Part shown: positions 6,821-11,333 of the stretch, piece by piece
Position numbering within the stretch: position 1 is the first letter of the stretch
Layout of the letters: each line of letters opens with the position of its first letter
Assembly: GCF_002019735.1 (NCBI RefSeq)
Contig: NZ_KV917378.1
Span: forward strand, 4,180,869 to 4,244,868
Source: Salipaludibacillus agaradhaerens
GTDB lineage: Bacteria; Bacillota; Bacilli; Bacillales; Salisediminibacteriaceae
DNA: 64,000 nucleotides
Reading direction: 5' to 3'
Translations under genes and position numbers: made by a program
The notes under the pieces: model-generated
What the model saw: only the letters and a program-made list of their open reading frames with translations
Database searches by the model: none
What the model was told of the DNA's origin: nothing

Positions 6821-7609
6821 TTATTTTATTGCCCTTCGCTTGATGGGGATAATAGTTGGAAACTCTTCTTTGAAACTAACCCTTGCATCAATGTTATAGA
6901 CCTTTTTTAAAAAATGTGAATTAAGAAGTGTTTTAGGGGGTCCCTCATCACTAATCGTACCGTCTTTCATCGCAATTAAGTGGTCACAATAGGCAGCTGC
7001 CTGTTGCAACTCATGGAGCACCATGACGACGGTGATCTGATAAGTACGATTAATCTCTTCTAACATCTCCATGACGTCTAATTGGTGAGCGATATCTAAA
7101 TAAGTTGTAGGTTCATCTAACAATAAGATATGTGTTTTTTGAGCTAGAGCTAAAGCAATACGTACTTTTTGTTGTTCACCTCCTGATAAAGTATGGAATA
7201 GACGCTGAGCATGGGAACGTGTCCCGGTGACAGACATGGCCCAATTGATTACTTCGTTGTCCTCTTCATTAAGTGTGGTTTGAAACCATTTTTTGTACGG
7301 TGAACGACCGAAAGCAATTAGTTCTTTTACTGTAAGGTTTGGAACCGACTGTTTTATTTGAGGCATCATCGCTAATAGACGTGCAAATTCTTTTGTATTT
7401 AGATTTGTTGAAGGCTGTGAATCAATGGTCACATGACCTTGATCCTGTATGAGCAGTTTGGCAATAATTTTAAGTAGCGTTGATTTTCCCGAGCCGTTAG
7501 GTCCGACTATGCCCGTCATTTTACCGCTTGGGATGGAAGTTTGTAACTTGTTAAGTTGAAAGCTGCCGATGGAGAGTGAAAGATTTTCTGTTTCAATAGC
7601 ATTGTCCAT
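6821..7609 (-). CDS. Haem/iron ABC transporter ATP-binding protein (second system)
   Basis: A 262-residue FepC-type ATPase: Walker [10 protein letters not shown], signature LSGGEQQK, Walker B LLLDEPTT, switch VLHELQQ. It starts immediately after the permease stop (TGA then ATG) and uses a GGAGG inside the permease 3' end, so the two are translationally coupled. It is a paralogue of the plus-strand ATPase, with the same gene order but its own partners. Haem is the inferred substrate because isdG follows. Confidence 0.9.
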
Positions 7610-8605
7610 TCATGTTAGCCTCCGTTTTTTCAATAAATATAAAAAGAATGGGGCACCAAGTGCTGCAAGTAAAATACCTACAGGAAGTTCAATAGGATCA
7701 AACCAAGAACGAGCGATTGTATCAGCAAAAACAACTAGAATTGCGCCTCCACATGCAGATAGTGGGAGTAAGTAACGATAATCTTCGCCAATCAATAGTC
7801 TGACAGCATGGGGGACGACGAGACCAACAAAGCCAATTAATCCTGCTACACTGACAGCAGCACCCGCTAAAAAAGCAGCCAATGAAATAAGTAAAAACCG
7901 CTGTAATTCTACTTTTTGGCCTAGTAGTTTAGCAGAATCATCACCAAGTTGCAGTATATTCGCCGGTTTTATGGCAAATAGTGATAACACTAATCCTACA
8001 ACAGCATAAGGGGCCATAAATTCTAAATGATACCAACTACGTCCATTTAAGCCACCAGACAACCAAGGAATAACTGATTGAACGCGATCACTATATATGA
8101 CCATGAGACCATTTTGGCCGGCGCCTATGAGAGCATTAATCGCAACTCCAGCTAAGATGATTTTTAGTGGAGAAGCGCCTTTGTCCCAAGCAAGGGTATA
8201 GATAAGCATTGATGTGATAAACGCACCGATAAATGCAGTAAGCGGTAATAAATAACTGAATTGAGGGAGAGCAAGCATCGTAATAGTTGCAACAAATCCT
8301 CCGCCCGCTGTTACGCCAATAATGCCAGGATCAGCTAATGGGTTGCGCATAACGCCTTGCAGTAAAGCGCCTGCTACAGCTAAACATGCCCCAACTAAAA
8401 AACCAATAAGTATTCTTGGAAGTCTAATATCCATAATAATGGTTTGATTAATAGGGTCACCAGCGCCGTTTATGGCAAGCCATATATCATTATGGGAAAT
8501 CGAGACCCCACCGGAGATGAGAGCAAATAATGAGACTAATAGAAAAAGTGGCAAGATGGCAACAAGAGCTATCACTCGTCGTTTGGATCGTTTTTCAATA
8601 CTCAT
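7610..8605 (-). CDS. FecCD-family haem/iron ABC permease (second system)
   Basis: A 331-residue BtuC/FecCD-type permease with multiple membrane helices. Family motifs are RLPRILIGFLVGACLAVAGA near residues 60-80, LQGVMRNPLADPGIIGV, and VAGLIGFVGLVVPHAVR near residue 250. Its ATG overlaps the stop of the upstream binding-protein gene by 4 bp (ATGA), so the operon is tightly coupled. It is paralogous to the permease at 3599-4585. Confidence 0.9.
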   Translation of the reverse strand: MSIEKRSKRRVIALVAILPLFLLVSLFALISGGVSISHNDIWLAINGAGDPINQTIIMDIRLPRILIGFLVGACLAVAGALLQGVMRNPLADPGIIGVTAGGGFVATITMLALPQFSYLLPLTAFIGAFITSMLIYTLAWDKGASPLKIILAGVAINALIGAGQNGLMVIYSDRVQSVIPWLSGGLNGRSWYHLEFMAPYAVVGLVLSLFAIKPANILQLGDDSAKLLGQKVELQRFLLISLAAFLAGAAVSVAGLIGFVGLVVPHAVRLLIGEDYRYLLPLSACGGAILVVFADTIARSWFDPIELPVGILLAALGAPFFLYLLKKRRLT

Positions 8606-9555
8606 GAGTCATCAGACGCTGATTCAAATAGGGTAACGAGTAAATCGAGCGCTTCCGTAACACGTGTACCTGGGTTAGTACCGAAAAGGTCAGATGGCAA
8701 AAGCTCTATATGGTTGTTTTTTACAGCATTGATCTCGCTCCAAGCAGCATTTTGTTCCATTTCCTTTAAAAATCCATCTTTCACTTCATCAGAGTTACCA
8801 TGACTCATGATTAAGATGTAATCAGGATTCGCTTCTACCACACGTTCAGTATTGATTTGTGCATATTGAGGATAGGCTTCCAATCGGTCAAAATCACTAG
8901 CAATGTTATTAGCTCCAGCAATGTCAAGAAGATCGCCGCTCAGTGAATTTGGTAAAGCAGCCATGTATGTACCAGGAGCACCATATACAAGTAAGACGTT
9001 GACACTTTCATTATGAGTGACGCTCTGAATCTCTGATACCTTATGTGTAATGGTTTCAACTATTTGTGCTGCTTCGTCCTCTTTTTGAAGCATCTGGCCA
9101 AATAAAAGTACTTGTTCTCTAATATCGTCTACTGATTGAGCATCAGTTAAAACAATTTGAGCACCTAATCCTTGTATAGTTGGAACGTCTTTGGCGTTCA
9201 TTTGCGTATGGCCAAGAACCACATCTGGTTGCACATACGTCAATTTCTCTAAGTCAATTTCATGCGTAGAACCAATTTGTTCCACCTCTTCTGCTTCTTC
9301 AATCACTAAGTCAAAGGAAGTAGTTGGTCTGCCTACTAAGCTTCCACCGAGGGCATAAATAATATCCATATCGCCATTACTCAACGCTGCAATACGTTCA
9401 GGTGCTTGTTGAAAAGTAATCGTTTGCTCAGCAAAATCATCAATTGAATATAAACCTTCAGAGGATGCTGGTGTTACATTATTAGCAGCGGACTCACTAC
9501 AGGCTGTTAACAGAGCTATTAGTGTGATGAGTGGTAAGATTACACGTGATATCAT
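8602..9555 (-). CDS. Haem/iron ABC transporter substrate-binding lipoprotein (second system)
   Basis: A 317-residue lipoprotein. The signal peptide ends LLTAC with Cys19 as lipidation site, followed by a Ser/Ala/Asn linker and a class III binding-protein fold. An IMSHGNSDEV segment occupies the place of the AAHGMPEE haem-ligand segment in IsdE-like proteins, so haem is likely but a siderophore is possible. It is the first gene of the four-gene minus operon (SBP, permease, ATPase, isdG). The promoter TTGACA-17-TATTAT at 9641-9613 is overlapped by two Fur boxes, so expression should rise under iron limitation. Confidence 0.88.
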   Translation of the reverse strand: MISRVILPLITLIALLTACSESAANNVTPASSEGLYSIDDFAEQTITFQQAPERIAALSNGDMDIIYALGGSLVGRPTTSFDLVIEEAEEVEQIGSTHEIDLEKLTYVQPDVVLGHTQMNAKDVPTIQGLGAQIVLTDAQSVDDIREQVLLFGQMLQKEDEAAQIVETITHKVSEIQSVTHNESVNVLLVYGAPGTYMAALPNSLSGDLLDIAGANNIASDFDRLEAYPQYAQINTERVVEANPDYILIMSHGNSDEVKDGFLKEMEQNAAWSEINAVKNNHIELLPSDLFGTNPGTRVTEALDLLVTLFESASDDS

Positions 9556-9585
9556 AGCAAATCTCTCCTAATCCCTTATCTAGAT

Positions 9586-9604
9586 GATAATGAAAATCAT
9601 TATC
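9586..9604 (-). promoter_or_regulatory. Fur box 1
   Basis: A 19-bp palindrome differing at one position from the canonical GATAATGATAATCATTATC. It lies over the predicted transcription start of the minus-strand haem operon. Confidence 0.93.
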
Positions 9605-9612
9605 ATAGTTAA

Positions 9613-9641
9613 ATAATAATGAGAATCATTATCAATGTCAA
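9613..9641 (-). promoter_or_regulatory. Sigma-A promoter of the haem operon with Fur box 2
   Basis: On the minus strand, TTGACA (9641-9636), a 17-bp spacer and TATTAT (9618-9613). A second Fur box, AATAATGAGAATCATTATC (9615-9633), covers the spacer and -10 region. Tandem Fur sites over -10 and the start predict tight repression by iron-loaded Fur. Confidence 0.9.
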
Positions 9642-9994: not shown

Positions 9995-10023
9995 TTTACT
10001 TTTTCAAATATTAGCGTTATGAT
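9995..10023 (+). promoter_or_regulatory. Sigma-A promoter for the leader/attenuator
   Basis: TTTACT (9995-10000), 17-bp spacer, TATGAT (10018-10023). Transcription would start near 10030, about 35 bp before the leader ORF. Confidence 0.75.
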
Positions 10024-10064
10024 TATAACTATATTTACCAACATTACCAAAGGAGGCGAATCAC

Positions 10065-10166
10065 ATGATGACAATTAGTTTGCAATGTACTCAGTTAGAT
10101 GTTAACTCATATATGTCTCATCATCGGTCTGCCTTTGGTAGAGAGCCTTCTTGTTTATTGAGATAA
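10065..10166 (+). CDS. 33-codon leader peptide with attenuator pairing segment
   Basis: ATGATG with RBS AAAGGAGGCG encodes a 33-residue peptide starting MMTISLQCTQLDVN and ending GREPSCLLR. It resembles no protein I recognise. Codons 20-24 contain 10123-10134, a perfect 12-bp complement of the 5' arm of the terminator at 10202-10232. That is the arrangement of a translation-dependent attenuator: a ribosome over this segment permits the terminator, while early stalling frees it to form an antiterminator. No enzyme, transporter or rRNA methylase gene follows; the next gene is the yrzI-like ORF at 10419, after another terminator. Confidence 0.65.
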   Translation: MMTISLQCTQLDVNSYMSHHRSAFGREPSCLLR

Positions 10167-10201
10167 AGGTTCTTATCTATCTTATATAAAGCACATTAAT
10201 T

Positions 10202-10236
10202 AGGCAGACCGATCAATACTATCGGTCTGTCTTTTA
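10202..10236 (+). terminator. Attenuator terminator
   Basis: A 12-bp stem, AGGCAGACCGAT (10202-10213) with 10221-10232, a 7-nt loop and a TTTT tail. The 5' arm also pairs perfectly with 10123-10134 inside the leader ORF. Confidence 0.85.
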
Positions 10237-10315
10237 TTAGTTAGGAAATGTCACAGCTTTTCTAACTACATTAACAACTGGGTAGTGCTTTTAAAAAGCT
10301 CTTCCAATTGCTAAA

Positions 10316-10347
10316 AAAGAGACCAACATGTCGTGGTCTCTTTTTTT
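10316..10347 (+). terminator. Second terminator before the yrzI-like gene
   Basis: AAGAGACCA pairs with TGGTCTCTT and is followed by a long T run. Read-through of the attenuator would meet this hairpin next. Confidence 0.8.
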
Positions 10348-10418
10348 ATTTCAAAGTATCTAATTGAGTTTAAAGGGGGTGATAAGTATTAAATATGCTT
10401 AGAGGGAGGTGATAAATC

Positions 10419-10606: not shown

Positions 10607-10678
10607 ATGAAAAGAAGAGCCTGTCAGTTAACCTGTGTGTACGCTGTATTTTTGCCAAAGGGGAAAGGGTTTGTTTAG
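10607..10678 (+). CDS. Tiny ORF (23 aa) downstream of the yrzI-like gene
   Basis: A very strong RBS (GAGGAGG, 7 nt before ATG) opens a 23-codon ORF starting MKRRACQLTCVYAVF. The RBS quality and position after the yrzI-like gene suggest it is translated. A Rae1-type regulatory ORF is an inference from the B. subtilis yrzI operon. I cannot assign a function. Confidence 0.5.
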   Translation: MKRRACQLTCVYAVFLPKGKGFV

Positions 10679-11333
10679 CAACCTAACTTTAAAGCAATTC
10701 TTAATCATTCAACAATGGAAACTCGTTGACTAAGAGCTAGGCAAAAAAACAAGAGCTTCATTTAACGACCGAAAGTGCCAGTTTTAAGGATAGATTAAAT
10801 GTTTCAAGTGGAAACTTAACTTCTAGAATTATTGACGATGACATGCGACAGCTAAAATAAAATTGGCCCCGGTTTAGTGTTTTTACTGGACCGCGGGCGT
10901 TTTTTAATTACTTTAAAATTAACAGCCTGAATTCTCATATCCACCTCATTTCAATTTAAATGGCTACCATTAATCCTTTAATCTTAATGGTGAGGTACGT
11001 CTCTTTTATAGTGATAATCAAAGGAGATAAACTCAAGGATGACTGTGGAATAATGATAGATAATAAAAGGTAGTTATAACAGAGATATGCTAAAAACGCC
11101 ATAACTCACTTATTAACAAAATTATTATAAAATATTTACAAAGTTAATAATAGGTTAATATGCCACCTAATTCGCCTATTTACTGTTAAACTTTCTTTGG
11201 AAGAATAGTATTCTTGTCTATCCAAAAACAGGCTTGAGCGTTTATATTATTTGAACTTTTAAAGAGTAAATGTCTTTGTGAGGTTAGTTTATAAGTACAG
11301 AGGACAATGTAAAGTGACTAGTTAAAAAGCAAG
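10679..11333. other. Gene-free stretch
   Basis: Contains the terminator at 10863-10905 and a palindrome ACCATTAA/TTAATGGT at about 10974-10999. I see no plausible gene. Confidence 0.5.
10863..10905 (+). terminator. Terminator-like hairpin
   Basis: An imperfect GC-rich stem (GGCCCCGGTTTAGT with ACTGGACCGCGGGC) followed by six Ts. It probably ends the yrzI-like transcript. Confidence 0.6.

Follow-up and report, generated by a model that had tools for sequence, protein, structure and literature searches.

A probable ribosome-controlled transcription attenuator conserved upstream of the yrzI small-peptide operon in Bacillaceae

The stretch of DNA analysed here (the window; 64,000 nucleotides of Salipaludibacillus agaradhaerens contig NZ_KV917378.1) carries a short open reading frame (ORF) with a strong Shine–Dalgarno (SD) sequence (AAAGGAGG), followed by two intrinsic terminators (T1 and T2), a gene of the YrzI family, an S1025-like mini-ORF and a further terminator that closes the operon (Table 1). 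An earlier note, made from the letters of this DNA, had described the 33-codon ORF with its SD, T1, the second terminator and a yrzI-like ORF, all of which are present in the sequence; the pairing that locks the SD region to the leader (SD:leader), the mini-ORF at 10607–10678, the terminator at 10864–10899 and the unit's conservation as a whole were absent from that description. The product of the YrzI-family ORF passes the curated cut-off of PF09501 (40.1 bits against 23; E = 4e-10) but falls short of that of NCBIfam TIGR02413 (38.9 bits against 47.05); its AlphaFold prediction, made with 30 relatives, is uninformative (two helices, mean pLDDT 69, pTM 0.38). There is no resistance gene downstream of the leader, the YrzI gene and the mini-ORF being found there instead, and a comparison with Rfam at gathering score gave zero family matches in the window and in ten yrzI loci.

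Table 1. Positions of the elements of the leader–yrzI unit in the window.
Feature	Position	Strand	Basis or remark
Promoter-like TTTACT-17-TATGAT	9995–10023	+	Scan; homologous leaders and congeners
Segment 0, UACCAAAGGAGGC, holding the leader SD	10045–10057	+	MFE fold; pairs with 10131–10140
Leader ORF, 33 codons, MMTISLQCTQLDVNSYMSHHRSAFGREPSCLLR	10065–10166	+	Frame and length same in G006 and G007
Segment 1, antiterminator strand, leader codons 20–24	10123–10134	+	Perfect complement of T1 5′ arm
Hairpin GAGAGCCUU/AAGGUUCUU spanning the leader stop codon	10141–10174	+	Predicted by folding; sequence kept in G006 and G007
T1, intrinsic terminator, AGGCAGACCGAT-CAATACT-ATCGGTCTGTCT	10202–10232	+	
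T1 5′ arm (segment 2)	10202–10213	+	
T1 3′ arm (segment 3)	10221–10232	+	
T2, second intrinsic terminator	10314–10345	+	
YrzI-family gene, 49 aa	10419–10568	+	Pfam PF09501
S1025-like mini-ORF, MKRRACQLTCVYAVFLPKGKGFV, own SD	10607–10678	+	Position and C-terminus conserved
Operon-end terminator	10864–10899	+	

Several smaller features accompany these elements. The interval between T1 and T2 (10238–10310) contains two more conserved hairpins (GTTAGGAAA/TTTTCTAAC and CAACTGG/CCAATTG) that lack a T-run, and directly 5′ of yrzI (10372–10402) there is a second strong SD (AAAGGGGGTGAT) with a very short frame, which has no standard ATG (that is, a GTG or ATT start), ends in ATT AAA TAT GCT TAG and is kept in the congeners G006 and G007, where most of the changes in it are silent. 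On the other side of the leader, two Fur-box-like palindromes (9584–9640; GATAATGAAAATCATTATC and a near copy) lie directly upstream of a gene for a siderophore-type binding protein (8602–9555, minus strand), after which come permease and ATPase genes (6821–8605).

Of the substrates of Rae1, a nuclease that associates with the ribosome, the yrzI operon was the first to be characterised. S1025 encodes a 17-residue peptide and is cut by Rae1 between its Glu and Lys codons; the mini-ORF of the B. subtilis-like locus L074 (MFRIELLNHYTMEKDQV) fits this description. B. subtilis-like mini-ORFs read GAG AAG (Glu–Lys), whereas that of the window reads GGG AAA (Gly–Lys), and the C-termini found in relatives are VEKDST, MEKDQV or LPEGKGFV. 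In the mini-ORFs of loci L192 (G204) and L204 (G125), TGDST and RGDST, respectively, replace EKDST, natural variants that are a potential test of the site preference of Rae1. The genome of the window encodes Rae1 (PF05991; 188 bits).

The 5′ arm of T1 is an exact 12-nucleotide complement of leader codons 20–24 (duplex of −22.8 kcal mol−1), as the earlier note had claimed. This complement was equalled in 3 of 5,000 dinucleotide shuffles of the ORF, and T1 stands alone among the 22 terminator-like hairpins of the window (both strands) in having an upstream complement of at least 9 nucleotides. In the minimum-free-energy (MFE) fold, the SD region pairs with leader codons 23–26 (10131–10140) and thereby overlaps the antiterminator strand, so that the leader strand has two mutually exclusive partners, the SD region and the 5′ arm of T1. 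The hairpin across the leader stop codon is predicted to sit within the antiterminator loop, which it makes shorter, and the 5′ arm of T2 is able to pair with the 3′ arm and tail of T1 (about −11 kcal mol−1).

Leader DNA is present in two of the seven other genomes of the genus (approximately 95% and 86% identity), and in both of these congeners (G006 and G007) the order and spacing of the two terminators, yrzI and the mini-ORF are unchanged, the paired strands being kept with one G–U pair and one mismatch in the leader:T1 duplex of G006. Among 180 yrzI loci of the order, gathered starting from YrzI (PF09501), a strict rule found a leader ORF and one or more terminators 5′ of yrzI at 139, and a non-redundant set of 75 leaders was obtained once near copies were dropped. 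The remaining loci are in part tandem copies, truncated loci or starts that the rules missed; at three of them (L147, L075 and L080) the leader is present on inspection. Three further loci, from three congeners (L038, L039 and L040), encode a different YrzI subtype (ending in ARLIK or ARMIR) that seems to be without this leader and may represent a paralogous group under other control. The B. subtilis-like loci L073, L074 and L079 show the leader ORF, terminators and an MEKDQV-ending mini-ORF in the same order.

The linkage also holds when the search starts from the leader. The main-clade leader pattern (GGAGGTCGA-N60–90-ATTCGACC) has 27 matches in 299 genomes, in which a reversed control pattern has none, and coordinate comparison placed 26 of the 27 up to about 600 nucleotides upstream of yrzI on the same strand (the exception being G174:C3); as the window's own leader is without the main-clade motif, this test covers its relatives. 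A promoter sequence, GTTTACA-17-TATAAT, recurs about 40 nucleotides 5′ of the leader start in 58 of the 75 homologous leaders (8 of 3,750 shuffles). The sigma-A promoter proposed in the earlier note stands as a promoter-like site that is recurrent in homologous leaders, but the match in the window taken alone is at chance level (4 sites in the scan against 3.6 expected). With 26 of 27 motif matches preceding yrzI, we assign the leader to the yrzI operon, which on sequence grounds is a single unit comprising promoter, leader, T1, T2, yrzI and mini-ORF. The comparison with related genomes that the earlier note had recommended thus finds yrzI and the mini-ORF behind the leader in G006, G007 and most yrzI loci; its statement that the leader has no target gene was mistaken (139 of 180 loci, 26 of 27 motif matches), and its suggestion that the leader may control the downstream unit gains support from the unit and its spacing in the two congeners and from the same 139 loci.

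All three candidate pairings bind better with their own than with swapped partners (0 of 5,000 permutations for each), and with one leader per SD type (24 types) the result for SD:leader and leader:T1 was 0 of 10,000 permutations, although these controls leave some relatedness effects in the covariation figures. Against shuffles, the SD:leader duplex is better than 95% (P ≤ 0.05) in 63 of 75 leaders, the duplex between the 3′ arm of T1 and the 5′ arm of T2 in 60 of 66 and the leader:T1 duplex in 42 of 75, the last being the weakest of the three signals (median P = 0.04). The strands themselves differ from clade to clade: the main clade has SD GGAGGTCGAAUA, leader UAUUCGACC and T1 CAGG(U)nGAAUA, the sister clade SD GGAGGCUA, leader UAGCCUCC and T1 GGUUAGA, and the window SD region UACCAAAGGAGGC, leader GGUCUGCCUUUGGUA and T1 AGGCAGACC. 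An RNAalifold consensus of 45 relatives contains the SD:leader helix, the T1 helix and one weak four-pair helix. T1 and T2 resemble each other within a species. Duplication, concerted change or selection for a pairing relay could each account for this resemblance, and within the genus of the window the T1:T2 partners pair no better than swapped ones do (rank 0.58).

Translation passes through the core ATTCGACC in any of three frames (YST in 32 leaders, IRP in 10 and FD/FG in 9), from which it follows that the RNA is kept and the peptide is not; in our reading, this argues for general sensing of ribosome position and disfavours a specific arrest peptide. An amino-acid-specific leader was likewise considered and rejected, given that a run of a single codon was looked for in the leader ORF and none was seen, that the peptide varies and that the core is read in three frames.

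To relate the position of a ribosome to the fold, we scanned the window with masked folding of the RNA as it would stand before the 3′ arm of T1 is made. The antiterminator is allowed with the P-site at codons 1–16, blocked at codons 18–26 and allowed again from approximately codon 28 (codons 28–34), so that fast completion of the leader would have to end in ribosome release and re-locking. Once the full T1 is present, T1 wins at equilibrium in every ribosome state, and the switch must therefore be kinetic, as the decision of attenuators usually is. Without a ribosome, and before the 3′ arm of T1, the antiterminator is still favoured (P = 0.97), which means that the SD lock has to form first for the off state; in these modelled folds, the no-ribosome state is a weak point of the window's copy, and the SD lock is stronger in most relatives. 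Over the 75 leaders, and before the 3′ arm of T1 is made, the antiterminator is expected to have 4.7 pairs when no ribosome is on the leader; the figure is 11.9 for a ribosome at the start codon and 1.2 for one close to the end of the leader. When the start is occupied, 55 of 75 real leaders and 48 of 150 shuffled leaders gain at least 3 pairs, and because the shuffled leaders show it too, the modelled gain is partly generic (that is, any unlocking frees some strand).

On the evidence of the sequence elements, their conservation, their covariation and their linkage to yrzI, we consider the region very probably to be a ribosome-controlled transcription attenuator of the downstream yrzI/S1025-like small-peptide operon, and an attenuator of the bmrB-like kind that the earlier note had proposed appears well supported. 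From this evidence we infer how transcription in this organism, the kinetics, the inducing signal, the handling of T2 and a Rae1 step may fit together. In the absence of a ribosome, the SD region (10045–10057) would pair with 10131–10140, the antiterminator strand would be tied up and T1 would form (off). A ribosome that has initiated and is stalled or slow in approximately the first 16 codons would cover the SD region, and leader segment 10123–10134 would be freed to pair with the 5′ arm of T1 (10202–10213) and block T1 (on). At normal speed, the ribosome would either lie over codons 17–27 during T1 synthesis or leave, with the SD lock re-forming (off). The signal is likely to be general early stalling (for example, through ribosome antibiotics or a shortage of charged tRNA) rather than a specific peptide. 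The freed 3′ arm of T1 may in turn disarm T2, a relay from T1 to T2 that we put forward tentatively and with some doubt. A second layer could follow, as in B. subtilis, in which Rae1 cuts the read-through mRNA inside the S1025 ORF; its operation in this organism is nearly an even bet.

Other readings of the leader deserve consideration. The leader and T1 could mainly make a short stable RNA (a small RNA (sRNA) or dual-function mRNA), with read-through into yrzI incidental, as the earlier note had envisaged in part; RNA from the yrzI–yrhG gap of B. subtilis is indeed catalogued as an sRNA and was found with Hfq (PMC3574147), a possible dual function of the same gap RNA has been remarked on for FZB42 (PMC4634765), and T1 and T2 in series would yield abundant short RNA. 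A simple sRNA, however, would not need exclusive, covarying SD:leader and leader:T1 pairings, 26 of 27 matches to the element are linked to yrzI and its core diverges widely from clade to clade, as a trans-acting seed would not, and we therefore regard a short RNA as a possible by-product but an improbable main role. Leader translation might otherwise serve coupling or mRNA protection, the pairings only locking and unlocking the leader SD while T1 and T2 act as constitutive partial terminators; although SD:leader is the stronger pairing against shuffles, leader:T1 covaries too (0 of 5,000 and 0 of 10,000 permutations) and matches perfectly over 12 nucleotides in the window, which makes this reading very improbable. 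The last option, also raised in the earlier note, is that the leader was left behind when an antibiotic-resistance gene was lost; its resemblance to the anatomy of bmrB/vmlR-type leaders and ribosome inhibitors as the natural signal would speak for this. We reject such an orphan leader, whose chances we judge negligible, on the conservation of the unit, which congeners and other members of the order carry with no resistance gene in it, and on the linkage of the leader motif to yrzI (26 of 27).

The attenuator favoured here has relatives among known leaders. In erm-type leaders, an SD-sequestering strand is freed by a stalled ribosome and it is chiefly the resistance gene's translation that responds, whereas in the window the locked SD would be the leader's own and the output transcription. 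The bmrB leader of bmrCD in B. subtilis (PMC4191407) likewise has a leader ORF read by a sensing ribosome, a terminator and an antiterminator, and induction of bmrCD is lost when bmrB translation is abolished; the bmrB ORF has 53 residues, encloses the terminator and governs an ABC drug exporter, whereas the window, compared by anatomy, has 33 codons, T1 past the ORF, two terminators, a self-locked SD and a small-peptide operon. The vmlR leader of B. subtilis (PMC9226507) shares the series of anti-antiterminator, antiterminator and terminator, and a ribosome stalled on its upstream ORF blocks the anti-antiterminator, as we propose for the window; it differs in its three-codon ORF, its accessible SD and its target, a resistance ABC-F protein, whereas in the window the SD region is one strand of the anti-antiterminator and the ORF is long.

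The B. subtilis yrzI operon (yrzI and S1024–S1026; PMC10632193, PMC11780869) resembles that of the window in having a YrzI-family gene and a downstream mini-ORF, and it is a Rae1 substrate: in a rae1 mutant, S1024–S1026 and yrzI are up together with bmrCD (PMC10632193). The mRNAs of yrzI and bmrCD, both of them Rae1 targets, also rise in B. subtilis when RNase P or RNase Z is depleted and functional tRNA is short, an effect that its authors discuss in terms of mRNA stability and that was not a test of attenuation (PMC10100781). A 301-nucleotide 5′ untranslated region, transcribed at a high level and with no known element in it, precedes yrzI in B. licheniformis (PMC3871023). No published attenuator for yrzI was found in the article texts searched, which were those of open-access papers; the element would be a mechanistic variant of the bmrB/vmlR kind and, as a conserved element, seems undescribed in these texts. 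A still broader scheme, in which a widespread Bacillaceae attenuator family uses the leader SD in a three-way switch, relays from T1 to T2 and has its read-through mRNA removed by Rae1, with yrzI and bmrCD sharing a logic of attenuation plus translation-dependent cleavage, is conceivable but unlikely to hold in full.

In summary, an unnamed RNA switch is probably present across Bacillaceae, in which a leader ribosome that stalls early would let RNA polymerase into the yrzI operon. Such a conserved ribosome-sensing attenuator would mean that, in Firmicutes, attenuation controlled by ribosomes reaches beyond resistance genes to an operon of small peptides. It would directly explain why the yrzI and bmrCD mRNAs rise in concert when tRNA is short, and would also indicate when the operon is meant to be on (that is, during slow early elongation), so that the function of YrzI becomes testable in B. 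subtilis under defined conditions. If this reading of the switch is true, the cell would express the yrzI operon at times of impaired protein synthesis.
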